From NCBI GenBank assembly GCA_030374765.1, contig JARGXX010000115.1:1403501-1467500 (forward strand): a stretch of DNA of 64,000 nt, in the 5' to 3' direction. The notes under the pieces are model-generated. The model was not told the origin of the DNA. It was given only the letters and a program-made list of their open reading frames with translations, and searched no databases. How positions within the stretch are numbered: position 1 is the first letter of the stretch; each line of letters starts with the position of its first letter. Shown here in pieces: positions 1 through 57,313 of this stretch. Origin of the DNA: Agarophyton chilense (Eukaryota > Rhodophyta > Florideophyceae > Gracilariales > Gracilariaceae). A program made the translations under genes and the position numbers.

Positions 1-1389
1 GCGTACAATACGCAAGTGCATACCTCTACAAAGACGGCACCGTTCGACCTCGTGCTCTCACGTAACCCTCCGGCTTTACCGGTTGCGCTCGACGACGAGA
101 CAGAATTGGACGCGCCGATCGCGGCTAAGTACCATCTGAAATAGAGGAATGACCTGAAGGCCAGAGCGGAAGAAGCCGCTCAAGAGTTATCGGAGACGCA
201 AGCTCGCTATAAGCGAAAATATGACGCCAGAAGCCGAAGAGGAAATCCGGCAATCCGAGTAGGAGATCACGTCTTCGTGCGAGTTGAAAAACCGGACAAA
301 CAGGAAGAATCTCGTCATCAGTTGTTGCCGATAGCGGCTGGACCCTTCAAAGTGGTGGACCTTGATGAAGACACAATGGTCATCAAGACAGGTGAGGACG
401 TTGAACGTGTATTGCGCGATCGCGTTGAAGTCGCGCCTAACCCGCGAGTGGAAGTCCAGGTATCTGGTAGAACTAAGGATGCAAGTGCGACGGAACGTCA
501 AGGCAAAAGCCAAAGTGACTCTGGGGAGAGTGAACCGTCACCAATGGCTCGAGCGGAGGAGAAAGCTCCTGATCTCCCACCACCGGCGGTTGCGTACGCC
601 AATCACGGACAGCTTCCGAAATATCGGGATATGCCCCGTGGCACGCACACACCCGTAAGTACAGAAATGGAACCTGAAAGCAGGAAAGATGTTTTGGAAT
701 TTGGCCCCAAGGACTTGGAAACGAGTGCACGCAAAAACGCGCCTTTGCCGCTTCAGGCTGAACCGTCAGGTGAAGCGCCACTCGCTGTTCTGCCGATATC
801 GGCTCCCATCCTTCGTGGGCAGGAAGAAGAAGAGGTATCGCCTCCTGTCGTGGTGCAAGCACCATCGTCCCCCGAACAGCGGTCAGAATCGGATAAACCG
901 AAGGAAGTTCATCCACGAATGGAATTGAGAAGTAGCAAGAAGTACGCGTCTTTGGAACCTGGAAAACGGGATAGCTCTTTATCTGAGAAAGGTTCTCAAG
1001 GAATGAGTACACTGCCCCTGAGGGCAGAACGACAGTTAGTCGACGAGCGAACGCTTAGCGACGCTGAGACTGCTAACACAGAAACGCTTGGGTCAGCCCT
1101 AAGGCATTTCAAACCTGTTAACAGGAGTCTCGCGCCAACAGCGAAAGCATTGGGAAACGCCCAGGAATATGTTATGGATCGCATATGTGAACATGGCGAG
1201 CATGAAGATACCAGAGAATTACTGTATCGAGTCCGTTGGTACGGTTTTCCTCCGGAAGCGGATACGTGGGAAGCTATAGCTCATATCCCCCGTTCGCAGC
1301 TCGTGCGATATCATCGACGCATGCGATTACCACTCCCCAGGGAGATCGACTCCTCGATAGTCGGGCTCATCGGCGTATCCCATTTTTAA
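1..1389 (+). CDS. Element E pol 3' part: integrase C-terminal region, tail and chromodomain
   Basis: The start matches the end of a retroviral-type integrase (AYNTQVH-type segment, then a GPF/Y-like module around 300-450 with AGPFKVVDLD). A hydrophilic tail of about 230 residues follows, and then a chromodomain at about 1165-1320 (EYVMDRI, RVRWYGF, ADTWEAI). In the chromovirus branch of Ty3/gypsy such a domain directs integration toward particular chromatin marks. The same order (integrase, long tail, chromodomain, stop) is seen in element B. Treated as a fossil fragment. Confidence 0.82.
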
Positions 1390-1660: not shown

Positions 1661-3487
1661 TCAAAGAGACGTGCGAGCACGCAGGTTCGCAAGAAGCTGT
1701 GCGCGATCACCCTCAACTTGGTCCACGGGAAAGCTCGCATCTAAGAAGAACTGCCTCAGCGGATCCAAGCCTGGATCTTCGACCGTCACTGCACTCGGTT
1801 GTTGGGTAAACCCATGAGAGTACTCTTGAGCAACTCCCGCCGCTGCGGATTGATCGACGGAAGTCGCTTTGCCTGCCAGCTCTGGCTCGTCCTCGTAACC
1901 GAGTTCAGCCTCAGCTCCCGGCGCTTCCTCATACGGTTCCTCTCCGTTCTCGGATGGAGTAGCGTCGTACACGTATCCAGTAAGCTGGTTCGGTGGCATG
2001 TCACGCGGGTCCTCCCGAAGAAAGCGAGCCTGCTCGGAGGTGATCAACTGGCGCGTCCAGGGGTCGTACCAAACGAAATCTCCAGCACTTGCTGTTCGTC
2101 CAGGAGAATGGTTGTAGTGTCTTGCACGGGTTCGGCGAGCGGATTGATCAGCTGGCACTCCAGACCAGTCGACACTGTCGATTACATCCACAATATGGAG
2201 GAAGTTGGCATGGTCCGCACGGGATCCCAGGACAAGGGAAAGATCGAGTTCTCTCGGATACTTTCGCGCTGTGGGCGACATGTACCAAACTCTAAAGGTA
2301 TCATATGCATCCCACAGGAGGAAGACGGCCATCTTGGCGTTAAACTCGGTATAAACTACCGTCCAATATCCCGAGAACGGGTCGTTAACCAACGCGGACC
2401 CGATGTAGGAGATCGCCGGTGGGAGCTCCACAGGGCAACCACGAGGACTCTCGATCGCTGCCCAATGCTCCGGAATACCGATGTAGCGCCCGAAGCGCGC
2501 GTTCCGCCGGATGCAGTCAATCTCGATCATTTGATACGGCACCAAATAGCCCAAACGTGATAGAGTACGACGTTCCCAACGGGAATAATCCGAATAGGGA
2601 GTGTCACGCTTTCGAAGGAAGCGGAACTCCGCACGGAGACGAGGTTGCTGAAAGCAGAAAGCTGCATCACGCACACTGCGCACACCGCGCCAACCGCTAA
2701 CATCGACTTCAACGAGTGTCTCGATATTCGAGTAACCTTCACCATCGGTACGGGCTTTCCAGGTATCTAGTTCCCAGTCCTGTGGGAGGAGAACCGTACT
2801 GATGAATCAGCGAAGACGCTTGTAAATCAGCTTGGTGAACCGCGTACGGGCTTCGGACAAGGTTTCCGTTGAATATCGCGCAATCGCGTTGTCTGGCAAA
2901 GCAATATGGCTCGCCCAGTCGTCGGTATAAATCGCATGTTCCGGAATACCGTCGAGGAAGTACCCACCGTGTACATACTGTTGTATCAACGCGTCATCGC
3001 GGATAGCAACTGGATCAAACCAGGGCGCTTGCGCGAAAAGTTCAACGTTGTCGAGAGTATCTCGTCCATAGGAATCCGCAGGGTGCGGGTAGCTCCGCTG
3101 AGCACGACGAGAAGGAGCTCGAATTACACCCGCAGCAGCGGCGTGAGCCGCGTTCGGCATTGGAGCCACGGTTGGCTGAGGTAACGGTACCGACCGGAAT
3201 CCGGTGTACGGTGTGTGGAACGAACGGTATGGACCGAGTTGAGCAGTAGGCTGCGACGCATAACCAGCAGTGTTGGACGGAGCCCCAGAAGGCACATCCT
3301 CAGAGGAGGGCTGAAACGGGTTTGACCCGGCGTTCGGAATCATCGGGAGAGATCGACCTGAAGAGCGGTGAGGAACAGAATGCTGTTCAGAACTGTAAGA
3401 GTTGGTCGGGCGGCGAGGAATTCGTGATGACAATGAGTACCCGGAACACCGGTCCGACTGCGTATAAACGCTTCTTGCGTCCCTCAT
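1661..3487 (-). CDS. Element E antisense ORF (convergent to pol)
   Basis: An ORF region on the strand opposite to pol, read toward it. N-terminal part (about 2807-3487): Pro/Ser-rich, then APWFDPVAIRDDALIQQY. C-terminal part (about 1661-2683): LRAEFRFL, LVPYQMIEI, VELPPAISYIGS, NDPFSGYWTVV, WYMSP, GDFVWYDPW and an acidic Glu-rich tail. The same blocks in the same order occur in the opposite-strand ORFs of C, A and B. No known domain was recognised; no signal peptide or membrane helix is evident. Function unknown. It is in more than one piece. Confidence 0.75.
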
Positions 3488-8151: not shown

Positions 8152-8173
8152 AGGGAGTCTCCCCTTCGGGAGA
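8139..8173 (+). promoter_or_regulatory. Probable -1 ribosomal frameshift signal at the gag/pol junction
   Basis: Heptamer GGGAAAA at 8139-8145 lies in the Gag frame as G GGA AAA, just ahead of the Gag stop, and pol lies in the -1 frame. Twelve bases downstream a stem can form: TCTCCC (8158-8163), loop CTTC, GGGAGA (8168-8173). Heptamer and stem recur in D (heptamer 16,061-16,067, minus strand) and A (43,242-43,248, minus strand). B has GAAAAAC at the equivalent site with its own short stem. -1 frameshifting at gag/pol is a known strategy in Ty3/gypsy elements and retroviruses. Confidence 0.6.
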
Positions 8174-8186
8174 GGCGTCCTCAGAG

Positions 8187-10819
8187 TTGAGGCTGACGAC
8201 GCCCGAGGCGCCGATGCCTCGCTCCCCGGTGAAAATCCTGACAAGGAAGGACACCGCAGACGCGGACTCTAAACACCTCGGTGTTTTGCGTCGACCGTGG
8301 AAACGGGTACATCACAACCGGTTCCCGGAAAGAGTCATGGTCATGGCGAAGCGAAACTTGAAAGTTTACGCTGACCTAGGCCTTACTACCAAGTTCATGG
8401 TGCATTTTCTCACTGTGTTGGATACAGGTACAGAACCGAACTTCGTCGTGGAATCTATCCTACCACCTGCTTTGCAGTCGCAAATCCGCCGTGGCGTAGC
8501 ATTAGACGCCGCTCACGCTGGTAACAACCCGTTAGAAACGGTTGGAGTGATCGATTTGGTGGTACGCTTAGGACCCTGCGTCGTGAGGCTGCACTTTATT
8601 GTCTGTCGGTCACTCCCCGCCCCTCTCATCTTGGGTTGTGATTTTTGCGACCGTTTCGTCGAAGCGATTGTACCCCGCTTAACGCGTGTGGAATTGGACG
8701 ATAGATCCTCTGTTCCCATCGTCCGCCGTCCGCCGAAGCGTGCATCGAAGAAGCATGTTCCTCTTCCTGCTGCACAGGAGTTCCCCGCCGCTTTTCGCGA
8801 GTCTACAAAGCTTCGTGTCGACGAGTCGATTTTCATTCCGCCAAAGTCCCACTCTTGGGTGTGTGTCAGTTCTCGTCAGCACGGTACTCGAATCGTTCGA
8901 CCGATACCATCACTGTCGAACAGGCATCAACTCGCTTTCGCGGATGGAATGGTTCACATTGAGCCCGACAAGTCGTTTTGTGTATGTGTTTCCAACTTTG
9001 GAGAGAAACACCGGTATCTGGTTAGGAACCAAGTCATCGGAAGAGTTGCTCCTCACCCCATGTCTATCTTTACCCTTCAAGGGGATCGTACCGGTTCAAC
9101 CGGAATGGGTCACCCTGAGGAGGGCGATAATCTCGTCGGAGGTCCCCAGTCTACGCTGAACTTATCCACACTGCCGTGTGTGTCGCCACCAGCATTACTG
9201 GTTAACTTATCCAATGGTTCTTGGATTGCTGTCATCGACTACCGTCGGTTCTGCACGACTGACGTCGGAAAGATACCACCTCAGTTGGTGAATTTCAAAG
9301 CCCAGCCATTGCTGGATGGGCTACCGAATTGTTCGGATCATGAGAGTTGCTGGAACTCGTGGCTTTCAGTAATGCCTTCCGCTGTTCAGCGTTCGATGGC
9401 CTGCATACGCCCAAGGCGCAGAGGAGGGCCATTTAACAGAACTCTGGATGCTTCAGCCCCTCGTAACGAGGATGGTTCTCAGAATCCCTCGCATATTGCG
9501 GAAGTTCCTGTTTCTACGGTAGGGCTAATATATCCCATCCAGATGGTTGCTTTACCCGCCAATAAGCGATTCCCGCTCTACAACCCACCCGTGGGACTCT
9601 CTGATATACCGATTCAATCGGACGCTGGCCTGAATGGCCTTTCTTCTCTCACCCACTGCGCGGTGTCTATCCCCGCCAGTTGGGCGTTTCTACCACTCTC
9701 TATGCCGCTCCGTGTAAGGAGGGAGAGGGGACCCGCTCAATCGCGGAAGCATCGCCGTCGCAACGGAAGTTTAACCGGACACCCCGGGCAAGGCCCCCGA
9801 GCGGGCAACCGGCATCGTCGCCGGACGCCAATCCGCTCCCGCGGGACGCGGCGGTCAACCCGACCGCCACGCAACCCCGCAAAGGGAACCAAGGCGCTCG
9901 AAGACCCGAAGCCGGGAAGCGAGATCCTACGGACGCTCCGCATCGCGTGGAAGCAACTGAGGGCTCCCCGCACATTCGCGGTTGCACACCGAGCGTTTCG
10001 GTCGATACCGGTACTCCGGCAGGCGCTGCGCAAGCAGGTCTAGCGAGCCACTCCGTTGAGAACGGTACGAACCCCATGGGGGAAAAGGGGCGCAACGACA
10101 AGTCGAAAACCTCCTCCCTTGCCGAACAATCGGAGCCAACCGTCCGCGACGGCCCGACCGCCCGTCCTCAAGGTCACGTGACCCGGGCGGGAGATCGGAC
10201 CAATGGGCACCCGGCATCCCGGTCATTGGCTGACAGCCACCCCGCGGAGACGGATCGCCGGGACGGTGGACCACTCACCGCCCGCGGCGCACCGCACGGC
10301 GGAAACTGCCCACCAATGGGAACGCCGCATGCCGCAAATCAAGCGGAGGCCTTCGGCGAACCGTCACCAAGACGGAAGGATCCCCGCAAACTCGCGGTAA
10401 GAGCGGACTTCAGGGAAGCCCCTACCACCCAGCGGAAACACAACCCGGCCGCGCCGGCAACTTCCGCGAAGCGGTACGGCAGCCCCGGCAACCCGGCAAC
10501 AACTGCAGAGTGGAATGACAAACCGGGTGACCCGGAACAGGTGACGACGAGCCCAGCACCACGCGGCGCTGAGGCCCGGGTCACCACCACCCGGCAAGGC
10601 CGGCAAGTTTACGTGCAGGATTACGTCCACGACCGAATCGTCGGACATAGCTACGATGGGCACGGGTTGCTCCAGTACCGGACCCGCTGGTACGGATACG
10701 GGCCGGAGTGGGACACCCCGGAGCCCATCGAGCACCTCCCGCGCTCCACGGTAATGCGATACCACCGCCTTGCGAGGACCGCACTCCCAGCCACGCTGGT
10801 AAACGCCCAAGAGGGATAA
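8187..10819 (+). CDS. Element C pol: protease, tail and chromodomain
   Basis: The aspartic protease-like region is at about 8340-8700 (VLDTGTEPNFV, the usual DTG active-site context; LILGCDFCDRF downstream). A long Pro/Arg/Thr-rich low-complexity tail follows (9700-10,600), then a chromodomain at about 10,605-10,770 (VYVQDYVHDRI, QYRTRWYGYG, DTPEPIEHLP). No RT, RNase H or integrase core is recognised. The final 379 residues differ from those of element D at only two positions by eye. Fossil, reduced and broken. Confidence 0.75.
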
Positions 10820-11151
10820 ACCGTGAACACGGAATGGAATGGCTGATGGTGCCACGCACCATCTCCGTCCATGCCCCAACGCGGGGAAGGAAGCAACCGC
10901 TCACGCTATCCCAACCTCGTTGGTGGTCGTGCCAGTTACCTGGTCCGCGCGCGAAGCGCCCACCGTTAAACACGGAACTCCCAGCTAGGCTGGTTCCCTG
11001 CAACGCCGGAACCCCGGTTGAAGGCCGGTACCCCGGAAAGAAAGAAGTGGACTTGGGAAAAAGCGTCGGAAAGGCGACCCTCTTCTTTTATTTCTCACTA
11101 CTGGCAAGGGCGCCCTAGAGGCGCCGCCCTACATTCTACCGGAAGCTCCGG

Positions 11152-12927
11152 TCATTCCTCCGCACGAGGTGGACCCCCGCCCAGGCGGTTGGCTAAGGCA
11201 TCCCGCATGGCGGCCACATCACCGGAGATCTCGGAAGGGCGAAGCCCCACCTCCCGAAGGAAGCGCGCGATGACCTCGCCCCGCTCCGCGCTAGCGGCGG
11301 TGGCGGGCCCGCCCGCCACCGATGGAGTCGGATAGGAATCCGTTCGCACGGCATCAGCAGCCCCGGATGGAGCCGCACCACCGTATTCAACGGACTCCTC
11401 ACCGGCCTCGCCGGACTCGTCACCCTCCATCGGAGCGTAACCCGGATCCTCCGGTTCGTTGTCGACCATCGGGTCACCATCCGCATAGTCGCGGTAATAG
11501 TCGCTCGAGTCGACATACCCTCGCGGGTGGTCGGCCGGGACTTCACGCGGCGCATGCCGGTTGGCTTCCGCTTCCTCGCGGCTGATCTCGTGGTACTCCC
11601 AGGGGTCGAAGTAGATGAAATCCCCCGCTAGCGCGGTATTCTTCCCGAATCCGGGGCCAGACCTGCTACGCGGTTGAATGCGTTGGGAGTTCCCCAGCGG
11701 GACCTCATCCCACTGGACCCCCTCCACAAAGTCGAGGAGGCCCAGCATCTCTTCTTCGTTTGCCTCGCCTCCGAGGGGGATGCGCATGTCCAAACGGCGG
11801 ATCGCAGCCCGCACACGCGGTGGCACGTACCACAATCGGTATTGGTCGTACGCCTCAGCGAGGATAAAAGCCGCAATGCGGACGGCCCATTCACTTACCA
11901 CGACGGACCACCACCCCGACTGGGGATCGTTCAAGAACGATGACCCTACATAGGTGAAGACTGGGGGCAGCTCAATGAAGCAACCCCAGCACGCCTCCAA
12001 GGAGGACCACCAGTCTGGGAGACTGACGTACCGACCACGTCGGTGAGCAGGCGCGATGCGCTCAATCTCCGTGTTCTGGTACGGTACGAAATACCCGGTC
12101 CGGGCCCGCCAACGCCGCTCATCGCGGATGAAGTTCTGAAGGAAGTTCGAGCGCGACTGCCGCGGTTGGTAGCGGAACTCTGCCCGAAGAATCGGTCGTA
12201 CCCAGCAAAGGGCTTCTTGCCGAGCGATCGGGGTGCCCCTCCAAGCGAGGGTTTCCAATCCGTTAAGACGGTCGCAGTACGACATTTCCTCGCGAGTGCG
12301 GTAAAGGTGGACGTCGAATTCGACCTCTGGCGGTATCGGGAACTCGAAAGGCGCCCGATGGTGCCTGAGATAAGCGATCCGCACAAGCGCGGCGTGAGCC
12401 TCCGCAGAGGATTCACCGCGTCGGCGGACTATGTGGTGTACCGGGATGGCGATACGATTACGCCAATCCCAGGACATGGTCACCACGCCGGGCAGGTCGC
12501 CCGGGAGCATCTCCGAATTATCGGTGTAGGACTGGATCAAATCCTCGTCGCGGACAGCCAATGGGTGAAACCAAGGCGCATACCGCAACATCGCGGAGCC
12601 ATGCCGAGTTCTCGGATTTGCACCCACAAGGGCGTCGTAGGTCGGCCACTGCGGTGGGTCCGCCTGTCCGCGAAAGCGGGCGCCAATACGGCGGTCTTCG
12701 TACGCGAGGTTGGTAATATCCCCAGGGTGGGGCGCGGACCGGAAGCCGGTGTAACCGCCAAGGGCGGGAGTCGCGGATGTGTTATGACGGCCGGGGTTGG
12801 ACATGGTGCGTGTTGGTGTGCTGTTGTTGGAATCGGATGCAGAGAGCGTGCGTGGGATCCTTGGTGAAGGTGTGTTGGTTTCCGGAGACCCGGTGTCGGA
12901 CGCGCTCTTATCATGACGAGCTGCCAT
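11152..12927 (-). CDS. Element C antisense ORF, open throughout
   Basis: About 592 residues on minus from ATG at 12,927 (MAARHDKSASD), 48 bp inside the 3' LTR edge, to 11,152; convergent with pol. N-terminal ~100 residues are Ser/Thr/Pro-rich. Conserved core blocks: APWFHPLAVRDEDLIQSY, DWRNRIAIP, PILRAEFRYQPRQSRSNF, YFVPYQNTEIERI, CWGCFIELPPVFTYVGS, NDPQSGWWSVVVSEWA, LWYVPP, GDFIYFDPWEYHEISREEA. Then an acidic, low-complexity tail and a short helical end. No signal peptide, membrane helix or catalytic motif is seen, and no family is recognised. Conservation with B and E, which have different LTRs, argues for a real protein. It could assist Gag or RNA, act as a silencing suppressor, or bind host chromatin: all speculative. 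Confidence 0.78.
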   Translation of the reverse strand: MAARHDKSASDTGSPETNTPSPRIPRTLSASDSNNSTPTRTMSNPGRHNTSATPALGGYTGFRSAPHPGDITNLAYEDRRIGARFRGQADPPQWPTYDALVGANPRTRHGSAMLRYAPWFHPLAVRDEDLIQSYTDNSEMLPGDLPGVVTMSWDWRNRIAIPVHHIVRRRGESSAEAHAALVRIAYLRHHRAPFEFPIPPEVEFDVHLYRTREEMSYCDRLNGLETLAWRGTPIARQEALCWVRPILRAEFRYQPRQSRSNFLQNFIRDERRWRARTGYFVPYQNTEIERIAPAHRRGRYVSLPDWWSSLEACWGCFIELPPVFTYVGSSFLNDPQSGWWSVVVSEWAVRIAAFILAEAYDQYRLWYVPPRVRAAIRRLDMRIPLGGEANEEEMLGLLDFVEGVQWDEVPLGNSQRIQPRSRSGPGFGKNTALAGDFIYFDPWEYHEISREEAEANRHAPREVPADHPRGYVDSSDYYRDYADGDPMVDNEPEDPGYAPMEGDESGEAGEESVEYGGAAPSGAADAVRTDSYPTPSVAGGPATAASAERGEVIARFLREVGLRPSEISGDVAAMRDALANRLGGGPPRAEE

Positions 12928-12960: not shown

Positions 12961-13217
12961 TAAGGGGGGGGATATGAAGAGCAACGCCCTCCAGGGAGGT
13001 TTTTGGGGACTTAAGTTTTTTCCGGAGCCTCCGGCGTGCAAGCTCGTTATGAGTAGGAGTAATCCGCTTTCACGGCGACACCCGGAACGCCGGTGATGCC
13101 CCGGCGGGACCGAGTGCCATACACGTGGCCGCCAGATTGGCTCCTTTTGTTAGACCGACATTTAGCTATTTAGGATAGACTTTATTTGTTGTATTCTACG
13201 GTGACTACAGTACTTAG
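12961..13217 (+). repeat. Polypurine tract and partial 3' LTR of element C
   Basis: The run at 12,961-12,975 (TTAAGGGGGGGGATA) is a polypurine tract, where plus-strand DNA synthesis is normally primed. The LTR begins TGAAGAGCAACG at 12,976 and matches the 5' LTR until 13,217, where sequence from inverted element D takes over. It has no copy of the 24-bp G-box unit, unlike the 5' LTR. Confidence 0.78.
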
Positions 13218-13386
13218 ACAGCTGGGAGTTCCGTGTTTAACGGTGGGCGCTTCGCGCGCGGACCAGGTAACTGGCACGACCACCAACGAGGTTGGGATAG
13301 CGTGAGCGGTTGCTTCCTTCCCCGCGTTGGGGCATGGACGGAGATGGTGCGTGGCACCATCAGCCATTCCATTCCGTGTTCACGGT

Positions 13387-35400: not shown

Positions 35401-36219
35401 TGTGGAGCAAAACCCGGCGACGGGAAGTGCTCTCAAGGTGTTCGAAGCCTTGCTCCCTGAGGGAGGCAGACTCAGAGACAGAGCCCTCCGTTCCACCCGT
35501 AGTGCGGGGTGTAACTCCCACGGGGAATTCCGGCAGTACCGACGGAGGTGAGGGGTAGAAACCGTGGATCGGGAATGGGTATGGGTATCCCAAAGAATGG
35601 GGGAAAATCCGGCGAAGAGGAAAAACGGGGCGAGGGTCGGGCACTAACAGGCACCGGACCCGAGAACCAGAAAAGGGGCGAAACAACAAAAGAAACCCAA
35701 TACAGGGGCGAAAACCTGTTCTCGAAAGGAAACACAAAAAGCACGCAACAAGTAAGCAGAACCCCCACGGGGTATCGTGCACGCAGGTCGTCTGAGCGGT
35801 CCCAAGGGGGTGGTTGCACGGAACCCAAACGTGGGCACTCTCCAAGTGGAGTCGTGTCCCTACGCAGGCGTTGCTAACCAGAGCCCGTTCCGGGTTGTAA
35901 GGCCGAAACGATGGCGACGAAGAACCTCTAAAGGTATCGAAGACCAACCTTGGTTCCCATTTACTCTGAGCTTCGGACTGTCAGATCTCATCTCCCTAAG
36001 TAGGGCCCACTAACTAAACTCTACAGTAGTGCACACCTGCTCAGGGCCATACACGTGGAGATCCCACTGCCAGGGCCCAAAAGTCCAACGTTCTACAAAT
36101 ATCCGAAAATCGGTGCCAAAATTAAGCCACGTGTATCACGGGGCCAATCAAGCCATGGGCCATCCGAATTTTCCCTTATAGGCGAAATATAACCAGAAAA
36201 CAGTGCCACCTCAGCACAC
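35401..36219 (-). repeat. Left LTR of element B, first piece
   Basis: Starts TGTGGAGCAAAACCC and matches 56,401-57,219. It is interrupted at 36,219/36,220 by element A and resumes at 46,335. CACGTG boxes occur here as in the right LTR. Confidence 0.9.
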
Positions 36220-37084
36220 TGTAGGACAATGCCCCCAAGGGGGAAAACCTATGAAAACGTCCGGATCTTCCTCTAACGAGGTAAACGGCGCGGTAGAGCC
36301 CTCCCAGGGATCGGCGCGCAATGCCGGGTGTAAGCCGGAGCCGAACCGTCGCGACGGGCGCAGGGAGGCTGAAAGAAGCCGAGAATATCCGCCGAAGCGG
36401 TGCTTGCGTATCCTCTGAGGAGGCAAAACCCACGAGAGTGGCGAGCACGACAGGTGTCAGTGCGAGCCGCAAGAGCGGGAATTGTCCAATGAAGGGGAGG
36501 AAAAGGGAAGGAAAATGGGAACGAAGGCAAGAGGGCGAGGTTGACCACGAGTCGCAAGAGAGGACTCGGGAATAGCCGGCACTGCCGGGTGTAGCAAACC
36601 GTATACACGGGCGGAACCACGAAAGTGAGAATAGATACCCAACACACGAAGTCTGCTTGAACGTCCAAGGGGGTTGGGAAGCCGTGCACCACGGGAAATC
36701 TCTCCCTAAGGAGTTGTATATCCGCGCAGGCGGTTCGACCCAGAGCCAAGATCTGGACGACCAAGATCACCCTTCTTGGGGAGACTTTACTGGACCGGCG
36801 GCCGCGAGGCCGGCGGCCTAAGTACTGTAGTCACCGTAGAATAGAATAAATAAAGTCTATCCTAAATAGCTAAATGTCGGTCTAACAAAAGGGGCCAATC
36901 TGGCGGCCACGTGTCGCGCGGGCGCTGCGGCCACGTGTATGGCACTCGGTCCCGCCGGGGCATCACCGGCGTTCCGGGTGTCGCCGTGAAAGCGGATTAC
37001 TCCTACTCATAACGAGCTTGCACGCCGGAGGCTCCGGAAAAAACTTAAGTCCCCAAAAACCTCCCTGGAGGACGTTGCTCTTCA
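36220..37084 (-). repeat. 3' LTR of element A (left)
   Basis: 865 bp, family 1, with one 24-bp G-box unit at about 36,907-36,930. The adjoining internal run read on minus (TTAAGGGGGGGGATA) is the polypurine tract. Confidence 0.9.
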
Positions 37085-37131: not shown

Positions 37132-38907
37132 ATGGCAGCTCGTCATGATAAGAGCGCGTCCGACACCGGGTCTCCGGAAACCAACACACCTTCACCAAGG
37201 ATCCCACGCACGCTCTCTGCATCCGATTCCAACAACAGCACACCAACACGCACCATGTCCAACCCCGGCCGTCATAACACATCTGCGACTCCCGCCCTTG
37301 GCGGTTCCACCGGCTTCCGGTCCGCGCCCCACCCTGGGGATATTACCAACCTCGCGTACGAAGACCGCCGTATTGGCGCCCGCTTTCGCGGACAGGCGGA
37401 CCCACCGCAGTGGCCGACCTACGACGCCCTTGTGGGTGCAAATCCGAGAACTCGGCATGGCTCCGCGATGTTGCTGTATGCGCCTTGGTTTCACCCATTG
37501 GCTGTCCGCGACGAGGATTTGATCCAGTCCTACACCGATAATTCGGAGATGCTCCCGGGCGACCTGCCCGGCGTGGTGACCATGTCCTGGGATTGGCGTA
37601 ATCGTATCGCCATCCCGGTACACCACATACTCCGCCGACGCGGTGAATCCTCTGCGGAGGCTCAGACCGCGCTCGTGCGGATCGCTTATCTCAGGCACCA
37701 TCGGGCGCCTTTCGAGTTCCCGATACCGCCAGAGGTCGAATTCGACGTCCACCTTTACCGCACTCGCGGGGAAATGTCGTACTGTGACCGTCTTAACGGA
37801 TTGGAAACCCTCGCTTGGAGGGGCACACCGATCGCTCGGCAAGAAACCCTTTGCTGGGCACGACCGATTCTTCGGGCAGAGTTCCGCTATCAACCGCGGC
37901 AATCGCGCTCGAACTTCCTTCAGAACTTCATCCGCGATGACCGGCGTTGGCGGGCCCGGACCGGGTATTTCGTACCGTACCAGAACACGGAGATTGAGCG
38001 CATCGCGCCTGCTCACCGACGTGGTCGGTACGTCAGTCTCCCAGACTGGTGGTCCTCCTTGGAGGCGTGCTGGGGTTGCTTCGTTGAGCTGCCCCCAGTA
38101 TTCACCTATGTAGGGTCGTCGTTCTTGAACGATCCCCAGTCGGGGTGGTGGTCCGTCGTGGTAAGCGAATGGGCCGTCCGCACTGCGGCTTTTATCCTCA
38201 CTGAGGCGTACGACCAATACCGATTGTGGTACGTGCCACCGCGTGTGCGGGCTGCGATCCGTCGTTTGGACATGCGCATCCCCCTCGGGGGCGAGGCGAA
38301 CGAAGAAGAGATGCTGGGCCTCCTCGACTTTGTGGAGGGGGTCCAGTGGGATCAGGTCCCGCTGGAGAACTCCCAACGCATTCAACCGCGTCGCGGGTCT
38401 GGCCCCGGACTCGGGAGGAATACCGCGCTAGCGGGGGATTTCGTCTACTTCGACCCCTGGGAGTACCACGAGATCAGCCGCGAGGAAGCGGAAGCCAACC
38501 GGCATGCGCCGCGTGAAGTCCCGGCCGACCACCCGCGAGGGTATGTCGACTCGAGCGACTATTACCGTGACTATGCGGATGGTGACCCGATGGTCGACAA
38601 CGAACCGGAGGATCCGGGTTATGCTCCGATGGAGGGTGACGAGTCCGGCGAGGCCGGTGAGGAGTCCGTTGAATACGGTGGTGCGGCTCCATCCGGGGCT
38701 GCTGATGCCGTGCGAACGGATTCCTATCCGACTCCATCGGTGGCGGGCCCGCCCGCAACCGTCGCTGGCGCCGAGCGGGGCGAGGTCATCGCGCGCTTCC
38801 TTTCGGGAGGTGGGGCTTCGCCCTTCCGAGATCTCGGGTGATGTGGCCGCCATGCGGCATGCCTTAGCCAACCGCCTGGGCGGGGGTCCACCTCGTGCGG
38901 AGGAATG
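37132..38907 (+). CDS. Element A antisense ORF (convergent to pol)
   Basis: Plus-strand ORF from ATG at 37,132 (MAARHDKSASDTG), 48 bp inside the LTR edge, closely matching the ORF of element C: Ser/Thr/Pro-rich start, APWFHPLAVRDEDLIQSY (about 37,480), YFVPYQNTEIERI, CWGCFVELPPVFTYVGS, NDPQSGWWSVVVSEWA, LWYVPP, GDFVYFDPWEYHEISREEA, acidic tail. Differences from C are scattered and mostly conservative. No known domain. Near-complete fossil with a break near its end. Confidence 0.78.
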
Positions 38908-39240: not shown

Positions 39241-42200
39241 TTATCCCTCTTGGGCGTTTACCAGCGTGGCTGGGAGTGCGGTCCCTGCAAGGCGGTGGTA
39301 TCGCATTTCCGCAGAGCGCGGGAGGTGCTCGATGGGCTCTGGGGTGTCCCACTCCGGCCCGTATCCGTACCAGCGGGTCCGGTACTGGAGCAACCCGTGC
39401 CCATCGTAGCTATGTCCGACGATTCGGTCGAGGACGTACTCCTGCACGTAAACTTGACGGCCTTGCCGGGTGGTGGTGACCCGAGCCTCAGCGCCGCGTG
39501 GTGCTGGGCTCGTCGTCGCCTGTTCCGGGTCACCCGGTTTGTCATTCCGCTCTGAGGTTGTTGCCGGGTTGCCGGGGCTGCCGTACCGCTTCGCGGAAGT
39601 TGCCGGCGCGGCCGGGTTGTGTTCCCGCTGGGCGGTAGGGGCTTCCCTGAAGTCCGCTCTTACCGCGAGTTTGCGGGGGTCCTTCCGTCTTGGTGACGGT
39701 TCGCCGGAGGCCTCCGCTTGATTTGCGGCATGTGGCGTTCCCATTGGTGGGCAGTTTCCGCCGTGCAGTGCGCCGCTGGCGGTGAGTGGTTCACCGTCCC
39801 GGCGGTCCGCCTCCGCGGGGTGACTGTCAGCCAATGACCGGGATGCCGGGTGCCCATTGGTCCGATCTCCCGCCCGGGTCACGTGACCTTGAGGACAGGT
39901 GGTCGGGCCGTCGCGGACGGTTGGCTCCCATTGTTCGGCAAGGGAGGCGGTTTTCGACTTGTCGTTGCGCCCTTTTTCCCCCATGGGGTTCGTACCGTTC
40001 TCAACGGAGTGCCTCGCTAGACCTGCTTGCGCAGCGCCCGCCGGAGTACCGGTATCGACCGAAACGCTCGGTGTGCGACCGGGAATGTGCGGGGAGCCCT
40101 TAGTTGCTTCCATGCGATGCGGAGCGTCCGTAGGGTTTCGCTTCCCGGCTTCGGGTCTTCGAGCGCCTCGGTTCCCCTTTCGGGGTTGTGTGGCGGTCGG
40201 ATTGACCGCCGCGTCCCGCGGGAGCGGAGTAACGTCCGGCGACGATGCCGGATGCCCGCTCGGGGGCCTTGCCCGGGGTGTCCGGTTAAACTTCCGTTGC
40301 GACGGCGATGCTTCCGCGATTGAGCGGGTTCCCTCTCCCTCCTTAGACGGAGCGACGGGTGATGGTGGGCTAACCGCATGGCGGGTATAAATACCGCTGC
40401 GCGGCGCCCGTAAGGGTAGCTGGCCGCGAGGGCCAGGTGTTTCCGGCATTGACGGTGGTTCCGATAAAGTCGGTATATCGGAGAGACCCCGTGAGGGGTG
40501 CGGTACCACGGCGGGGCTTCTAAGCCATGGTGCCACGGGTACGGGTGTTTCATTCTCGCGCGCTGCGAGTAGCTCATCCATTTCCATGGTGTCTTCCCCG
40601 GTTTCGGGCCAATCCGACTCCGTCGGTGTTTCCCTTTCCAAGGTAAAGCATGGGATCTCGTCGACCTCCGGGTCGGCAAGTGCTTCACCTGTCGTAGGTA
40701 ATCGAGAGAGGGCGTCTGCTTGGGTGTTCTGGACACCCTTTTTGTAGACGACCTCGAAGTCGAATTCCGCTAAGCGGAGGCGCCACCGCATTAAGCGGCC
40801 AGAAGGATCTGCGATGTTCAGCAGCCACCTCAACGAGGCATGGTCCGTGTACACGGTGAAATGAACGCCCATGAGGTATGGGCGTAGAGTGGATATCGCC
40901 CAGACCACTGCGAGGCACTCCTTCTCGGAGACCGAGTAGTTGCGCTCGTGGACGTTCAGCGTGCGGGACCAATAGCCAATTGGTTTGCGTTCCCCCTCGG
41001 GGGTGGTTTGGAACAGTGCGCAGCCCACCTGGTGGTCGCTGGCGTCGGTGTCGATGGAGTAGGGAAGCCCAGGTTTGGGCAAGGATAGGATGGGAGCTGT
41101 CGTAACTGCCTTAATCAAGGAGTGAAAAGATTCCGACTGATCGGTGGTAAATGGCGCAAGCTTCGGTGGCTGGCCCTTCCGCAGTAGCGCGTTTAGCGGA
41201 GCGGCGATATCCGAGAAACTCGGTATAAACCGTCGATAGACGTTGACCAGACCTAAAAAGGAGCGGAGCTCCGTTTGAGTACGGGGCTCCTTCGCCTCGC
41301 AGAGGGACTTGATACGAACTTGTTCGATCATTAACCGTCCTGGACGGATGACGTGCCCGAGATACTTCACCGTGTCGGTGAAGAACTCGCACTTCCTCAA
41401 CTTGAGGGTTATTCCTGCGTCTCGCAGTACGGTCATCACGTCCCGCACGTTGGTCAGGTGATCGTCCAGGTTTCTGGAAAACACAATGATGTCGTCCAAG
41501 TAGACAAGGCACGTGCGCCACTTGAAACGCGACATCAGTATGTCTATTGCCCTTTGAAAGGTGGCCGGTGCATTGGTTAAACCAAACGGCATCCGCTTGA
41601 AGCGGTAGGAACCCGAGTGGCAAACAAACGCGGTTTTGTCTCGGTCCTCTTCCCGGACTGGGACTTGCCAGTAGCCCCAGTTAGCGTCCAGAGCCGTAAA
41701 CACGGTAGCGTCCCCGAGCGAGTCTATACACTCGTCCATGCGTGGAATCGGGTAGGTGTCCCTCACGGTGACGGCATTGAGGCGGCGGTAGTCAACGCAA
41801 AACCTCCACGTGCCGTCAGACTTGAGGGCCAGCACCACCGGTGAAGCCCAAGGAGATTGGGCGGGCTCGATGACTCCAGCACGGAGCATCTTGTCCACCT
41901 GAAATTCTTCCTCCTCCCGAGCTTTCGGTCCCGCCCTGTAAGGGGGTTGTGCAACCGGACGTGCGTCCGGTAGCAAGTCTATCCGATGTTCGGTTGTATT
42001 GATCTCACCCAGCGAGCCGTCCCACATTGTGGTAAACTCGCGTAGCATTCCGCGTAAGCGGTCCCGGTGTGAGACCGGTACATGACTCAGGTCCAGGTCC
42101 TCGAGGGCCTTGATCGGGTCTATCTTATCGTAGCTCGTAGGCTGTGCCCTGGTGTCAGGTGTGGGAACCGACGAGGTCGGAAATGCATCCGTCTTGACGG

Positions 42201-43344
42201 TTTTATCGAGCGCCAACTGCTGTGCCTCCCCGGAGGTTTCTGCACCGGATACCGGGAAACCATCCTCGGTAGAGGGAGTTATCCCGAGTACTTCGGCAGC
42301 CGTCACCTTTGTAGGGAGCATCGCGAGCGGGTGCGGCGTCACAGACCCAATGACTTGGTTCTTTGCCAGCGTCTGGGGAGCCTTCCCCAGATTGGCAACC
42401 AACACCCTGAAAGGGGAATTCGGCGTGACTTGCACGATTCCGTTCGCAACGGTTAACTGAAATTTCTCGTACAACGAGGGCAAGGGCTGAACAACCCGAA
42501 GACCGTGTTGACGGGAATTAACTGAAACCATAACCTGGCTCTCTGGGGGTATGGTTACTGACGAGGCAACGCGTAGCTTCGTAGACTCCCGGTTCTTCGG
42601 TGTGGGTTTCTGCGCAGCAGGTAGAGGAACGTGTTTCCTCGATGCCCGCTTCAGCGGTTGACGAACAATGGGGACGGTCGATCTGTCCTCAAGTTCCACC
42701 TGCTTAAGGCGTGGGCGGATGGCGTCGACAAACCTGTCGCAGTAGTCACATCCCAGTATAACTGGCGCGGCCAGCGAGCGGCACACAATAAAAGTTAGTT
42801 TAACCACCATCCGCCCTAGCATGACGACCAGGTCGATCACACCAGCCGTTTTCAACGGGTTATTATTGGCGTCCGACACGTCGGGTAGCGTTTCAGAACG
42901 GATGAGTGACCGCAATGGCGGGGGTAAAACCGATTCCACAATAAAGTTCGGCCCAGCACCTGTATCCAGGACAGTGAGATGTCTCACCATAAACTGCGTG
43001 TGCAGACCAAGGTCAGCGTAAACCTTGTAGTTACGCTTGGCCATTACCAATACTCTATCCGGGATCCGGTTATTTCTAATCCGTATCCACGGTCGACGCA
43101 ACACACCGAGGTTTTTAGAGTCCGCGTCTGCGGTGTCCTTCCTTGTCAGGATTTTCACCGGGGAGCGAGGCATCGGCGCCTCGGGCGTCGTCAGCCTCAA
43201 CTCTGAGGACGCCTCTCCCGAAGGGGAGACGCCCTCTATTCTTTTCCCTGTACAGGGTCCTGGTCGGGCGAAGGCCCGACTTCCTCGGCAACGAGTGCAT
43301 GATTCCGTTGCACGGTAGCTACCGCAGGAGCGGGTTGAGGTCAA
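39241..43344 (-). CDS. Element A pol: protease, reverse transcriptase, RNase H, chromodomain
   Basis: An open frame of 1367 codons on minus. Protease-like VLDTGAGPNFIVES; RT with DATVFTALDANWGYWQVPV and the catalytic box LVYLDDIIVFS, then VKYLGHVIRPG; RNase H with YSIDTDASDHQVGC and the later VVYKKGVQNTQADALSRL. It then passes into a low-complexity tail (PHPSRGLSDIP) and a chromodomain (VYVQEYVLDRI, RTRWYGYGPEWDTPEP). No HHCC finger or DDE integrase core is recognised between RNase H and the tail, although B carries both there. It lies in the -1 frame relative to gag. Confidence 0.85.
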   Translation of the reverse strand: MTSTRSCGSYRATESCTRCRGSRAFARPGPCTGKRIEGVSPSGEASSELRLTTPEAPMPRSPVKILTRKDTADADSKNLGVLRRPWIRIRNNRIPDRVLVMAKRNYKVYADLGLHTQFMVRHLTVLDTGAGPNFIVESVLPPPLRSLIRSETLPDVSDANNNPLKTAGVIDLVVMLGRMVVKLTFIVCRSLAAPVILGCDYCDRFVDAIRPRLKQVELEDRSTVPIVRQPLKRASRKHVPLPAAQKPTPKNRESTKLRVASSVTIPPESQVMVSVNSRQHGLRVVQPLPSLYEKFQLTVANGIVQVTPNSPFRVLVANLGKAPQTLAKNQVIGSVTPHPLAMLPTKVTAAEVLGITPSTEDGFPVSGAETSGEAQQLALDKTVKTDAFPTSSVPTPDTRAQPTSYDKIDPIKALEDLDLSHVPVSHRDRLRGMLREFTTMWDGSLGEINTTEHRIDLLPDARPVAQPPYRAGPKAREEEEFQVDKMLRAGVIEPAQSPWASPVVLALKSDGTWRFCVDYRRLNAVTVRDTYPIPRMDECIDSLGDATVFTALDANWGYWQVPVREEDRDKTAFVCHSGSYRFKRMPFGLTNAPATFQRAIDILMSRFKWRTCLVYLDDIIVFSRNLDDHLTNVRDVMTVLRDAGITLKLRKCEFFTDTVKYLGHVIRPGRLMIEQVRIKSLCEAKEPRTQTELRSFLGLVNVYRRFIPSFSDIAAPLNALLRKGQPPKLAPFTTDQSESFHSLIKAVTTAPILSLPKPGLPYSIDTDASDHQVGCALFQTTPEGERKPIGYWSRTLNVHERNYSVSEKECLAVVWAISTLRPYLMGVHFTVYTDHASLRWLLNIADPSGRLMRWRLRLAEFDFEVVYKKGVQNTQADALSRLPTTGEALADPEVDEIPCFTLERETPTESDWPETGEDTMEMDELLAARENETPVPVAPWLRSPAVVPHPSRGLSDIPTLSEPPSMPETPGPRGQLPLRAPRSGIYTRHAVSPPSPVAPSKEGEGTRSIAEASPSQRKFNRTPRARPPSGHPASSPDVTPLPRDAAVNPTATQPRKGNRGARRPEAGKRNPTDAPHRMEATKGSPHIPGRTPSVSVDTGTPAGAAQAGLARHSVENGTNPMGEKGRNDKSKTASLAEQWEPTVRDGPTTCPQGHVTRAGDRTNGHPASRSLADSHPAEADRRDGEPLTASGALHGGNCPPMGTPHAANQAEASGEPSPRRKDPRKLAVRADFREAPTAQREHNPAAPATSAKRYGSPGNPATTSERNDKPGDPEQATTSPAPRGAEARVTTTRQGRQVYVQEYVLDRIVGHSYDGHGLLQYRTRWYGYGPEWDTPEPIEHLPRSAEMRYHRLAGTALPATLVNAQEG

Positions 43345-45469: not shown

Positions 45470-46334
45470 TGTAGGACAATGCCCCCAAGGAGGAAAACCT
45501 ATGAAGACGTCCGGATCTTCCTCTCACGAGGTAACCGGGGCGGTAGAGCCCTCCCAGGGATCGGCGCGCAATGCCGGGTGTAAGCCGGAGCCGAACCGTC
45601 GCGACGGGCGCAGGGAGGCTGAAAGAAGCCGAGAATATCCGCCGAAGCGGTGCTTGCGTATCCTCTGAGGAGGCAAAACCCACGAGAGTGGCGAGCACGA
45701 CAGGTGTCAGTGCGAGCCGCAAGAGCGGGAATTGCCCAATGAAGGGGAGGAAAATGGAAGGAATATGGGAACGGAGGCAAGAGGGCGAGGTTGACCACGA
45801 GTCCCAAGAGGGGACTCGGGAATAGCCGGCACTGCCGGGTGTAGCAAACCGTATACACGGGCGGAACCACGAAAGTGAGAATAGATACCCAACACACGAA
45901 GTCTGCTTGAACGTCCAAGGGGGTTGGGAAGCCGTACACCACGGAAAATCCCTCCGTAAAGAGTTGTATATCCGCGCAGGCGGTTCGACCCAGAGCCAAG
46001 ATCTGGAAGACCAAGATCACCCTTCTTGGGAAGACTTTATTGGACCGGCGGCCGCGAGCCCGGCGGCCTAAGTACTGTAGTCACCGTAGAATAGAATAAA
46101 TAAAGTCTATCCTAAATAGCTAAATGTCGGTCTAACAAAAGGGGCCAATCTGGCGGCCACGTGTCGCGCGGGCGCTGCGGCCACGTGTATGGCACCCGGT
46201 CCCGCCGGTGCATCACCGGCGTTCCGGGTGTCGCCGTGAAAGCGGATCACTCCTACTCATAACGAGGTTGCACGCCGGAGGCTCCGGAAAAAACTTAAGT
46301 CCCCAAAAACCTCCCTGGAGGACGTTGCTCTTCA
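45470..46334 (-). repeat. 5' LTR of element A (right)
   Basis: 865 bp, paired with 36,220-37,084. The primer-binding site lies just inside on minus (about 45,449-45,466, TGGTCTCC..ACTTAGAA), three bases from the LTR edge. One 24-bp G-box unit at about 46,157-46,180. Confidence 0.9.
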
Positions 46335-46514: not shown

Positions 46515-48371
46515 ATGGGGTCCTTCACCACTTCTGAGGATCGCCACAAAACCGGCACATCGGTACAACTTTCTTCTACTCCTCCGACTTTCGGCGATAC
46601 GCAACTTCTCGCAGCAGCGGTTTCGACTAGCCCTCTCAAGGGAATGAACCCATACGTCATCAACCCACTCTCGGGGCCATCGGCCTCCGCGCCGGCGGAC
46701 AACGAAGCTCCCCAGCAGGGTGGATATTTCTCCGGTTTGGATGCGGCTCCGTCAGGTACCGAACCTTCCGCCTCGGCGGGCAACCGACATCCTCAGAAGG
46801 ATTTGGACATCACCGCGGTGGCGTGGAACTCCGCTCATGCGATGCCCTTGGTAGCAAACTCCAGAGGTTGGATCTCAAACGAATCCTTTCGAAGGTGGAG
46901 TCCCCTCACCGATCCGGTGATATATTCCCGCGCTCCGTGGTTCCATCCGACAGCGGTTCGCGACGATGAGCTCATCGACTCCTACGTGGAGGACGGCTTA
47001 TTGCCGGGTGGCCTACCTGTTGAGGTTGTACGTTCTCCCGATTGGAGAGCGCGGGTAGCCATAGAGCCTCAGTGTCAATACCGCAGTAGTGGGGAGTCCC
47101 TGGACAAGTCGCGCGCAGCGATGGCGGCTCTGGCCTACCAGCGATTGGAGAGGTCACGCTTTGACCATCTGGTTCCCCCGGAGTACGGGTTCGATGTCGC
47201 CTACTACCGCACGTACGGTGAGGTCTCCTACGGGGATAACCTGGCAGCCTTTCCCGAAGCCCAGTTCCGCGGACCGGGTTTTCCTCTCCGAGAAGATATG
47301 CTCCAATGGAGTCGTCCCATCCTTCGGGCTGAATTCAGATACCTTCAGCGGTAGTTTACCCAGTATGGGTTCGATCGACGCGTGCGCTTCGAGCGCCGCT
47401 CGCGCTCCCGTTTCAGGTTCCTTGTCCCGTATCCTCACGTGGAACTGGAGCGTATCCGTAACATGGCGAAGGTTGGGCGATTCGTGCCCCTTCCAGCTTG
47501 GTGGAGTAAGGTCGAGGTCCCCCGAGGGTGCTTTGCTGAACTGCCCCCATGTATCTACTATATCGGGTCTCGTTTGATGCACGACCCGAACTCGGGATAC
47601 TGGGCCCTCGTTGCAGCCGAGTGGGCAGCCCGCGTAGCGGCGCACCTCCTCTGGGATGCTCATGACCATTTCCGTATCTGGTATATTCCTCCGATGCTAC
47701 GGACCATCATGCGTCAGATCGACCTTGTCCCAGCGTTGGGTTCGGCCAGCAACGTGCAGGACCTGTATCCAATCTTGGACGTGATCGACAACACCCAATG
47801 GGATCGAGTTCCAGTGGCAAATCAGCCCGCAGGGGAAGGATCCGCGCGAGACAAGTCTCCTGGCCGGTACGATCCGGGCTCCGGTAACTGGGTCTATTAC
47901 AATCCCTTCGAAGGGGTTCGCATCAGCGCGGCGCAAGCACGGGCGCTGATTGACTCGCCTCGACCGATGCCGGTTGGACACCCGACGGGGTTCAGTTATA
48001 TTGACGATTACGAGTACGAGCCTCCAGTAGACCTGGACGATCCAGCGTTGGATAACGAAGTGCCAGCTCATAGTGGAGTACTCCCTGTGGAGCCATCTGC
48101 ACCCTTCCAACCAGTGGGAACGACCTCAGCTGCGGCGGCGAATGCATCCGGTGGCGGTCCATCTGCTCCCCCCGGGTGGGGTGTGAACACCCTTGCGCAG
48201 GCGCCGGTTGCCACTCCGCAAGCGGATAGTGTGCGACAAGACCTCGTGAACGCAGGCATTCCGATTCCCCCGGGTATGACGGATGTGAGCCAGATGTTGG
48301 CTTTCGCCTCGGCGTACCATCAGGGTCAGAATCCCAACGGTGGGGCGGGTCCCTCCTCGGGCTTTCCGTAG
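46515..48371 (+). CDS. Element B antisense ORF (convergent to pol)
   Basis: Plus-strand ORF region starting near ATG 46,515 (MGSFTTSEDRHK), about 80 bp from the LTR edge. Blocks: APWFHPTAVRDDELIDSY (about 46,933), LVPPEYGFDVAYYRTYGEV, PILRAEFRYLQR, FLVPYPHVELERI, RGCFAELPPCIYYIGS, NDP-type HDPNSGYWALVAAEWA, RIWYIPP, GNWVYYNPFEGVRISAAQA, then a Pro/Ala/Gly-rich tail. Same order as in C, A and E, with roughly 40% similar residues by eye to C. No signal peptide or membrane helix. In more than one piece. Confidence 0.75.
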
Positions 48372-48768: not shown

Positions 48769-49608
48769 TTACCCGACTTGGGCACGATCCAGACTTGGAG
48801 GCAAGGTTACCCGAGCGCGTCGGTGATAGGATAAAACCTTAGACCTCGGAAGGTTCTCAATGGGTTCCACTGTATCCTCATCAGGCGATAATCCGTACCA
48901 TCGGACTTGGTAGCGAACTTCTCCCTCGGGGGTGTAGATGTGACGCACGATGCGATCGATAACGAATTCCTGCGGGTACACTTTTCCCTGTTCGGGCTTC
49001 TCTTCCATCTTGGAACGCTCTAGTTCCCTTGAGGGTGTCAACGTAGGGTCTAGACACACCCCGGTGGGTTCTTTTCCGTGTTGCGAGCGGGTCTCAGCAC
49101 TTCGTCCAAACGGCGCCGAGTGGCCTGTGGGCTACGTTGTAACTTCCGTCTACGGAGTCAAAACGGCCCACTTTTGGATTCTTCTTAAAGCTGAGATCTT
49201 CCCGATAGCAACGGTGTTCTTAGATTCCGTGACGGTTGAGAAACCGCGACGCCGTAGCGTCTCCAATCTCAGGGGGGTAAGACTTCAACGTCAACCCGAG
49301 CTACGGGGACGAAGGTTGCTCTTGTGCAACGCGCCGTGCGACGGAGGCGGTTTGCGCGACGGTTGGTCTTCAGAGCCTTTTGATTGGCTTAGTGAGGCGG
49401 TTTGCGCGACGGTTGGTCGTCAGAGCCTTTTGATTGGCTCGGTGCCATTTGACGTGTGCCACATAAATGCGCGGGCGCCGGTTGCCACTCCGCAAGCGGA
49501 TGTGAGGTGGCGCTTTCGGCACGCGCTAGCACTCTCCTGAGCTGTCCCCGACGGGTCTCACTCATTTCTTTCCCATTCCTGAGGGTTCCAATGTCTCCAT
49601 AGGAGTTC
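48769..49608 (-). CDS. Element B chromodomain end and variable tail
   Basis: Chromodomain at 48,769-49,059 on minus: YPQEFVIDRIVRHIY, EVRYQVRWYGLSPDEDT, EPIENLPRSKVLSYHRR. Between it and the long pol frame lies a tail region (49,060-49,608) holding a 50-bp tandem duplication at 49,344-49,443. It corresponds to the end of pol in E and C. Fossil. Confidence 0.75.
49344..49443. repeat. 50-bp tandem duplication inside element B
   Basis: Two 50-bp units (49,344-49,393 and 49,394-49,443), each opening GAGGCGGTTTGCGCGACGGT, with a few differences. It lies between the long pol frame and the chromodomain. Confidence 0.85.
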
Positions 49609-54141: not shown

Positions 54142-54153
54142 GTTTAGTTTTTC
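54130..54153 (-). promoter_or_regulatory. Probable -1 frameshift signal of element B
   Basis: Minus-strand heptamer GAAAAAC (54,153-54,147) directly before the gag stop, followed by a short stem-loop of type CTCCC CTGC GGGAG. The position is equivalent to the GGGAAAA signal of elements A, C and D. Pol is in the -1 frame. Confidence 0.5.
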
Positions 54154-56400: not shown

Positions 56401-57313
56401 TGTGGAGCAAAACCCGGCGACGGGAAGTGCTCTCAAGGTGTTCGAAGCCTTGCTCCCTGGGGGAGGCAGACTCAGAGACAGAGCCCTCCGTTCCACCCGT
56501 AGTGTGGGGTGTAACTCCCACGGGGGATTCCGGCAGTACCGACGGAGGTGAGGGGTAGAAACCGTGGATCGGGAATGGGTATGGGTATCCCAAAGAATGG
56601 GGGAAAATCCGGCGAAGAGGAAAAACGGGGCGAGGGTCGGGCACTAACAGGCACCGGACCCGAGAACCAGAAAAGGGGCGAAACAACAAAAGAAACCCAA
56701 TACAGGGGCGAAAACCTGTCCTCGAAAGGAAATACAAAAAGCACGCAACAAGTAAGCAGAACCCCCACGGGGTATCGTGCACGCAGGTAGTCTGAGCGGT
56801 CCCAAGGGGGTGGTTGCACGGAACCCAAACGTGGGCACTCTCCAAGTGGAGTTGTATCCCTACGCAGGCGTTGCTAACCAGAGCCCGTTCCGGGTTGTAA
56901 GGCCGAAACGATGGCGACGAAGAACCTCTAAAGGTATCGAAGACCAACCTTGGTTACCATTTACTTTGGGCTTCGGACTGTCAGATCTCAACTCCCTAAG
57001 TAGGGCCCACTAACTAAACTCTACAGTAGTGCACACCTGCTCAGGGCCATACACGTGGAGATCCCACTGCCAGGGCCCAAAAGTCCAACGTTCTACAAAT
57101 ATCCGAAAATCGGTGCCAAAATTAAGCCACGTGTATCACGGGGCCAATCCAGCCATGGGCCATCCGAATTTTCCCTTATAGGCGAAATATAACCAGAAAA
57201 CAGTGCCACCTCAGAACACCTTAGAAGGGATCATAATCATAACCCTCGGAGGGTTCAATCCTCATTCTATGAGTTGCATCTTCAAGTATCCCCTGACTGG
57301 GCGTTGCTCTACA
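56401..57313 (-). repeat. 5' LTR of element B (right, intact)
   Basis: 913 bp, TGTGGAGCAAAACC..GTTGCTCTACA on plus. CACGTG boxes at about 57,053 and 57,129. The last ~20 bases on plus (GCGTTGCTCTACA) resemble the family-1 LTR end (GTTGCTCTTCA), which suggests shared terminal bases for integrase recognition. Followed by the TATAA target duplication. Confidence 0.9.

Follow-up and report, generated by a model that had tools for sequence, protein, structure and literature searches.

Introduction

The closest described counterparts of the genes reported here are antisense ORFs of plant Ty3/gypsy retrotransposons. According to extracts of PMC7264820, maize Grande (gene23), rice RIRE2 and Silene Retand carry an antisense gene, called aORF-3R, between pol and the 3' LTR. 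These genes are present in many copies and their function is unknown; in the case of Grande gene23, an antisense transcript starts from a promoter upstream of the gene and the protein is nuclear (PMC7264820, extracts). Retand, a non-chromovirus, has a region of 2,933-6,566 bp between pol and the 3' LTR (PMC11963269, extracts), and the role of the plant Ty3/gypsy antisense ORFs is presented as an open question in the extracts of both sources. Other examples mentioned there are Boty, an LTR element of the fungus Botrytis with an antisense ORF between pol and the 3' LTR, HTLV with its antisense promoter inside the 3' LTR (both PMC7264820), and HBZ, named as an antisense retroviral gene (PMC11963269).

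In this work we analysed a stretch of 64,000 nucleotides from the red alga Agarophyton chilense (contig JARGXX010000115.1, positions 1,403,501 to 1,467,500), hereafter the window, and related copies elsewhere in the genome (79.76 Mb in 135 contigs). Like the genes of Grande, RIRE2 and Retand, the red-algal frames (aORFs) are antisense and lie between pol and the 3' LTR; the same can be said of Boty, to which they are likened by description only, and they share with HTLV-1 HBZ that they are antisense genes, a comparison of how such genes may work. The pol-3' LTR region is about 2.2 kb in elements A and C, unlike the longer one of Retand, and unlike in plant aORF-3R the ATG lies 47-81 bp from the LTR (A, C and B). 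In contrast to the non-chromovirus Retand, the red-algal elements B and E have a chromodomain scoring above the Pfam cut-off. The elements resemble chromoviruses in this chromodomain at the end of pol (A and C being below the cut-off), a likeness drawn from domain content, and differ from them in that A, C and the inverted copy C' have no integrase.

An earlier note on this DNA had put the aORF forward as a candidate for an undescribed system. This was too broad: the arrangement is already known from the plant antisense ORFs, and only the protein family and the host lineage appear to be undescribed. In a literature search by titles and the beginnings of abstracts, with subscription papers and repeat databases outside its range, no report of such an ORF in Ty3/gypsy elements of red algae came up. 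As far as these searches reach, three things appear to be new: the protein, its occurrence in red-algal elements with chromodomains, and its retention by copies that lack integrase.

Results

Four homologous antisense frames

The window contains four homologous aORFs, in elements C, A, B and E, all located between pol and the 3' LTR and convergent with pol (Table 1). When the C, E and B proteins were compared with the window by tblastn (E up to 1e-3), matches were obtained at just these four places, and the translated frames are clearly related to each other in BLASTP (C-B 1e-100, C-E 2e-80, B-E 8e-83). These results bear out the four antisense ORFs adjoining the 3' LTR that the earlier note had pointed to. 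The ORF of about 550-600 aa which it ascribed to all four elements needs qualification: the homologous frame is there in each of them, whereas C is the only one in which it is fully open. The ordered sequence blocks noticed in the proteins of E, B and the A/C family were found in the same order in alignments of 8 and 16 aORF sequences, several of which are partial. Elsewhere in the genome, stop-free aORFs were counted in 49 of the 74 best-scoring C-like copies, in 15 of the 72 best-scoring E-like copies and in 38 of the 71 best-scoring B-like copies, the last two sets having been counted by hand.

Table 1. Positions of the aORFs and of the parts of their host elements in the window
Feature	Position	Strand	Remarks
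aORF of element C	11152..12927	-	fully open, 591 aa; core about residues 117-443
aORF of element A	37132..38841	+	95% identical to C, same family; frameshift near 38823, stop 38839-38841
aORF of element B	46515..48371	+	618 codons, one in-frame TAG at 47352-47354
aORF of element E	1661..3487	-	608 codons, one in-frame TGA at 2807-2809
3' LTR of element C	12975..13225		ends after about 250 bp at inverted copy C'; one CACGTG site
Purine tract, candidate polypurine tract	12962..12974	+	adjoins 3' LTR of C, inside the short aORF leader
pol C-terminal end of C	9680..10819	+	chromodomain-like end, 20.0 bits, below cut-off; convergent with aORF
pol C-terminal end of E	277..1389	+	chromodomain, 29.4 bits; convergent with aORF
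3' LTR of element A	36220..37084		865 bp; two CACGTG sites in U3
5' LTR of element A	45470..46334		97.2% identical to 3' LTR of A
pol of A	39241..43344	-	RT, RNase H, linker, chromodomain-like end (19.2 bits); no integrase
3' LTR of element B, outer part	35401..36219		rest at about 46335-46433 (A inserted); TATAA before it
5' LTR of element B	56401..57313		TATAA after it
pol of B	49609..54141	-	RT, RNase H, integrase (H2C2, rve)
chromodomain of B	48789..48987 (about)	-	38.3 bits; beyond the stops that end the long pol frame in this copy
gag of B	54144..55838	-	CX2CX4HX4C knuckle, read by eye

The host elements

Element B (about 35401-57313, minus strand) is flanked by TATAA on both sides. Insertion of element A (36220-46334, with CACAC and CAAAC as flanks) has split the 3' LTR of B in two; one part is 98.3% identical to the 5' LTR over 819 bp, the other 96.9% over 97 bp. 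Element C starts at about 5068, and its 3' LTR is interrupted by the inverted copy C' (13220-19202). C and the truncated C' stand head to head and are 99% complementary (5612-10986 and 13220-18594), the result of a rearrangement or an assembly effect. The gag of element E lies outside the window, and the inner edge of its LTR is approximate.

Elements A, C and C' are incomplete. A has no integrase domain, its RNase H leading directly into the linker and the chromodomain-like end, and C and C' have no RT/RNase H either; in C, positions 8898-9706 occupy the place of 40354-42489 in A. The stops of the pol end and of the aORF of C are 332 bp apart. At the Pfam cut-off of 25.1 bits, chromodomains were called at the pol C-terminus of E and B, whereas the ends of A and C score below it (Table 1); the designation as chromodomain elements, used in the earlier note for all four, is borne out at this cut-off for E and B, while C and A have a chromodomain-like end.

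A, B and E have LTRs that share a few short matches and are otherwise unrelated: one match of 38 nt links A and B (79% identity, E 5e-5), all the others having E values of 0.028 or worse. The Gags of B and of A/C share about 50% identity over 535-542 aa. The unrelated LTRs of the initial description were thus confirmed for A, B and E, and its diverged Gags for B versus A/C, the gag of E being beyond the window.

The window also holds a further Ty3/gypsy pol fragment (61814-63999, minus strand) with RNase H and integrase, 36-56% identical to A and B over the longer matches; tblastn within the window detected no aORF near it. Host-type genes lie between the elements, encoding HSP70 (22372-25203, plus strand), glutathione peroxidase (25678-26550, minus strand) and a cytochrome b5-like protein (28961-30226, plus strand). 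A 42-bp tandem repeat of 4.4 copies (20886-21070) is located outside the described elements, and Rfam and tRNA scans of the 64 kb found nothing.

The aORF is under selection as a protein

The aORF is a real, protein-coding gene kept by selection on the protein. Between families, the codon differences at positions 1, 2 and 3 were 0.47-0.49, 0.42-0.45 and 0.66-0.73, as determined from 449 core codons of 666 alignment columns in 13 intact unique copies (6 C, 2 E and 5 B). The omega values obtained with the MG model of IQ-TREE were 0.151 for four sequences (last value in the log, 0.165 before it) and 0.280 for 13 sequences, figures that are rough because dS was saturated and kappa was fixed at 1. 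Within families the NG86 dN/dS was 0.50 for C (24 copies), 0.75 for E (22 copies) and 0.48 for B (7 copies), all biased toward conservation since the copies had been picked by their score with the aORF protein. The dN/dS near 1 that the earlier note had named as contrary evidence was thus not observed within the families, and between them the ratio is lower still. For C these calculations used 28 of 32 sequences, 24 of them unique, leaving out window copy A (misaligned after its frameshift) and L014, L016 and L025 (length); for E 26 of 31 were kept, 22 unique, with L041, L042, L045, L051 and L052 left out by length; all seven B sequences were kept. Among these sequences, L001 is the C copy of the window and L031 its E copy.

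At 28 loci of family C, pN/pS was 0.52 (0.42-0.67) for the aORF and, in the same copies, 0.68 (0.55-0.83) for the pol end; by region of the aORF it was 0.40 in the core (residues 118-443), 0.83 in the N-terminus and 0.80 in the last 48 residues. In family E the aORF (0.74) showed no extra constraint relative to the pol end (0.73; 27 loci). The choice of copies by aORF score biases these ratios toward conservation too.

Could the frame be open by chance or through coding on the other strand? The sequence is GC-rich (0.628 in C, 0.595 in one B copy), which lengthens chance frames, and there are other long frames opposite the aORF. However, of the six frames compared between C, B and E, conservation is highest in that of the aORF (255-308 bits), whereas the mirrored pol-sense frame reaches 133-160 bits and contains 20-28 stops, which disposes of the other-strand constraint considered at the outset; taken together, the pol-sense frames opposite the aORF have 2-28 stops and are less conserved. 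The codon-position pattern and omega speak against such an origin as well. On the strand control, the codon positions, omega and pN/pS we rejected this explanation, which we regard as extremely improbable.

Linkage to pol and copies without integrase

Sixty genomic loci (30 C-like and 30 E-like, chosen by their aORF) were retrieved together with their flanks, and in every one the aORF faces the pol end; six B copies were taken without flanks. The count from the pol side started from the pol end of A, and 70 of 4931 first-look places were scored. A listed aORF partner was found for 47 of these 70 pol tails, with a gap of 337-343 bp in 38 of the 47; as the partner lists consist of the best-scoring copies, 47 is a lower bound. 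It should be added that some of the scored copies are near-identical tandem or duplicated copies. Three C-family copies at C68:3138181-3158347 have a regular spacing of 9197 bp; they may be tandem elements sharing LTRs, or an assembly effect.

Twenty-eight of the 70 pol tails, A included, have no integrase and are arranged like A. A listed aORF partner accompanies 23 of the 28, and of these partners 17 are stop-free in the scored stretch, five have a stop and that of A is frameshifted. Among the other 42 pol tails, some with open frames of up to 1847 aa that we judged by their length able to hold integrase, 24 have a listed partner, 17 of them stop-free. Copies without some of their own enzymes thus often still carry the aORF. 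The pN/pS values of aORF and pol end were 0.55 and 0.53 in six integrase-less copies and 0.51 and 0.75 in 20 other listed copies; in the integrase-less copies constraint on the aORF is therefore visible, yet not above that on the pol end.

These data bear on the idea that the aORF is a captured host gene or the gene of a nested element, a mere hitchhiker. An antisense gene at the edge of an element would fit such an origin. Against it, the gene occupies the same place in three families with unrelated LTRs, selection on it persists, and its 12 protein matches (see below) have neither a Pfam domain nor a functional name; we consider a hitchhiker very unlikely.

The leader and the U3 region

A leader of 47 bp (A and C) or 80-81 bp (B) lies between the LTR and the ATG, in close agreement with the 48 and about 80 bp given in the earlier note, and it holds the polypurine tract. 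If the aORF is transcribed, the promoter is expected in the LTR, since only this short leader separates the LTR from the ATG.

In each of the LTRs of A, B and E there are two CACGTG sites, at a distance of 138-263 bp from the inner edge (approximate for E). Among shuffled LTRs, 0 to 1.1% reached the observed count, E having been tested at three because one palindromic site was counted twice. Within 420 nt of the ATG, the 30 C loci had two sites in 24 cases, one in three, none in two and more than two in one, and the 30 E loci had two in 18 cases, one in 11 and more than two in one. It may be gag-pol alone that makes use of the CACGTG sites. The U3 of C' contains a 24-bp unit with CACGTG in 3.5 tandem copies (18973-19056), an enhancer-like structure; most other copies have fewer sites.

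The protein

The aORF protein begins with a low-complexity N-terminus in which S, T, P, G and A abound. This is followed by a core of some 330 residues, neutral, rich in Arg and Trp and probably folded, then by an acidic tail and a short conserved C-terminal motif. In six aORF proteins the C-terminal tail has a net charge of -5 to -20, and hydropathy revealed no transmembrane helix, the highest Kyte-Doolittle mean over 19 residues being 1.45. In these composition tests the intact copies L036 (E) and L062 (B) replaced the broken window copies, and the N-terminus and core of E were left unsplit for hydropathy and charge. An Env-like ORF (aORF-3S) was dismissed as the frame is antisense and has no transmembrane helix by hydropathy.

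Arg makes up 7.6-10.8% of the proteins of C, A and the intact B and E copies, and Lys 0.2-1.1%. Gag and pol pieces from these elements have 3.2-5.1% Lys, and 1.6-1.8% would be expected from base composition alone. The ratio K/(K+R) is 0.02-0.13 in C, A, B and E and 0.24-0.37 in gag and pol pieces. Two other aORF proteins are less Lys-poor, P0005 with 3.1% (ratio 0.22) and P0006 with 1.8%. As base composition explains part of the lysine scarcity, we take it as a lead only to function. Basic runs of three or more residues occur in three of the six proteins, and none of the six has a clear nuclear localisation signal.

Three protein searches returned 12 distinct homologs. Six of them carry an organism name and all six are from red algae: Gracilariopsis chorda (two), Gracilaria domingensis (one) and Agarophyton chilense (three). 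Three partial A. chilense proteins share 86-95% identity with the B protein. Pfam, NCBIfam and PHROGs yielded no credible known-family relative, in agreement with the earlier note, which had seen no known domain and no membrane helix, and Pfam detected no DNA-binding or dsRNA-binding domain. The best PDB matches (phosphatases, E 1.3 and 1.2) were taken as chance, and no relative was confirmed among 26 pattern matches in viral contigs and 55 in genome contigs.

Membership in the Retand/TRP28 family (PF04195) was rejected: 16 aORF proteins gave no PF04195 match at E up to 10, in a search where most matches with E above about 0.1 are removed by the filters of HMMER. HBZ is a bZIP protein, and a regulator of this type was likewise set aside, the aORF proteins having no bZIP match in Pfam. 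A second Gag was also discarded on the grounds of an hhalign probability of 0.2 against the gag of B and of no match to a Pfam Gag family.

Discussion

The homologous frame recurs in three families, the protein is under selection, its place convergent with pol is fixed, and it is present in integrase-less copies. For what the gene does, the explanation that we favour, and to which we give about an even chance, is that the aORF is an accessory gene of a red-algal Ty3/gypsy lineage, transcribed from U3, and that its product is a nuclear regulatory or integration-stage factor. The aORF mRNA would start in the U3 of the 3' LTR, because just 47-81 bp, polypurine tract included, lie between the LTR and the ATG, and the U3 with its CACGTG sites would drive gag-pol in one direction and the aORF in the other. 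The product would act mainly on its own element family and would rather not be a structural or membrane protein. These last steps are the more tentative ones, and the role of the product is the weakest part of the explanation. Grande gene23 offers a precedent, in kind, for a nuclear antisense product.

It is also possible that the protein, instead of being a regulator, forms part of the particle or helps in replication, for instance as a second protein that binds nucleic acid or aids assembly. The high Arg content would suit such a role; the divergence of the aORF between families is near that of the pol end (C-E identity 32% vs 29%), and the gene is present in integrase-less copies, among them element A of the window, which still has gag. 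On the other hand, the protein resembles neither its own Gag nor any Pfam domain, and it would be unusual for a particle protein to be translated from an antisense RNA of its own. On balance we find this role rather unlikely.

A different function would be to counter host silencing: antisense and gag-pol RNA would form dsRNA, and the protein made from the same antisense RNA would blunt the response. The dsRNA idea has been proposed for antisense ORFs (PMC7264820, extracts); the suppressor role is our addition. If both transcripts are made, the anatomy of the element implies that they converge and overlap, and an Arg-rich protein could bind RNA, but Pfam found no dsRNA-binding domain, and we think this function decidedly unlikely.

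Returning to the accessory gene transcribed from U3, a narrower version of it can be formulated, in which a protein of an unknown family, expressed from a bidirectional U3, favours its own element, and elements without integrase (C also without RT) that rely on relatives keep the aORF. Such a cis-favouring accessory gene is a doubtful proposition, which we put forward as a suggestion. As the aORF persists in integrase-less copies and in the RT-less C, these constitute a natural test of whether the product acts in cis, for its own element, or in trans, for the whole family. With three families, more than 70 scored copies in each and a genome of 80 Mb, tests of expression and selection are practical. 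A red-algal protein with no detectable kinship to the plant ones and encoded in the same place would suggest that this architecture arose repeatedly or that it predates its known proteins.
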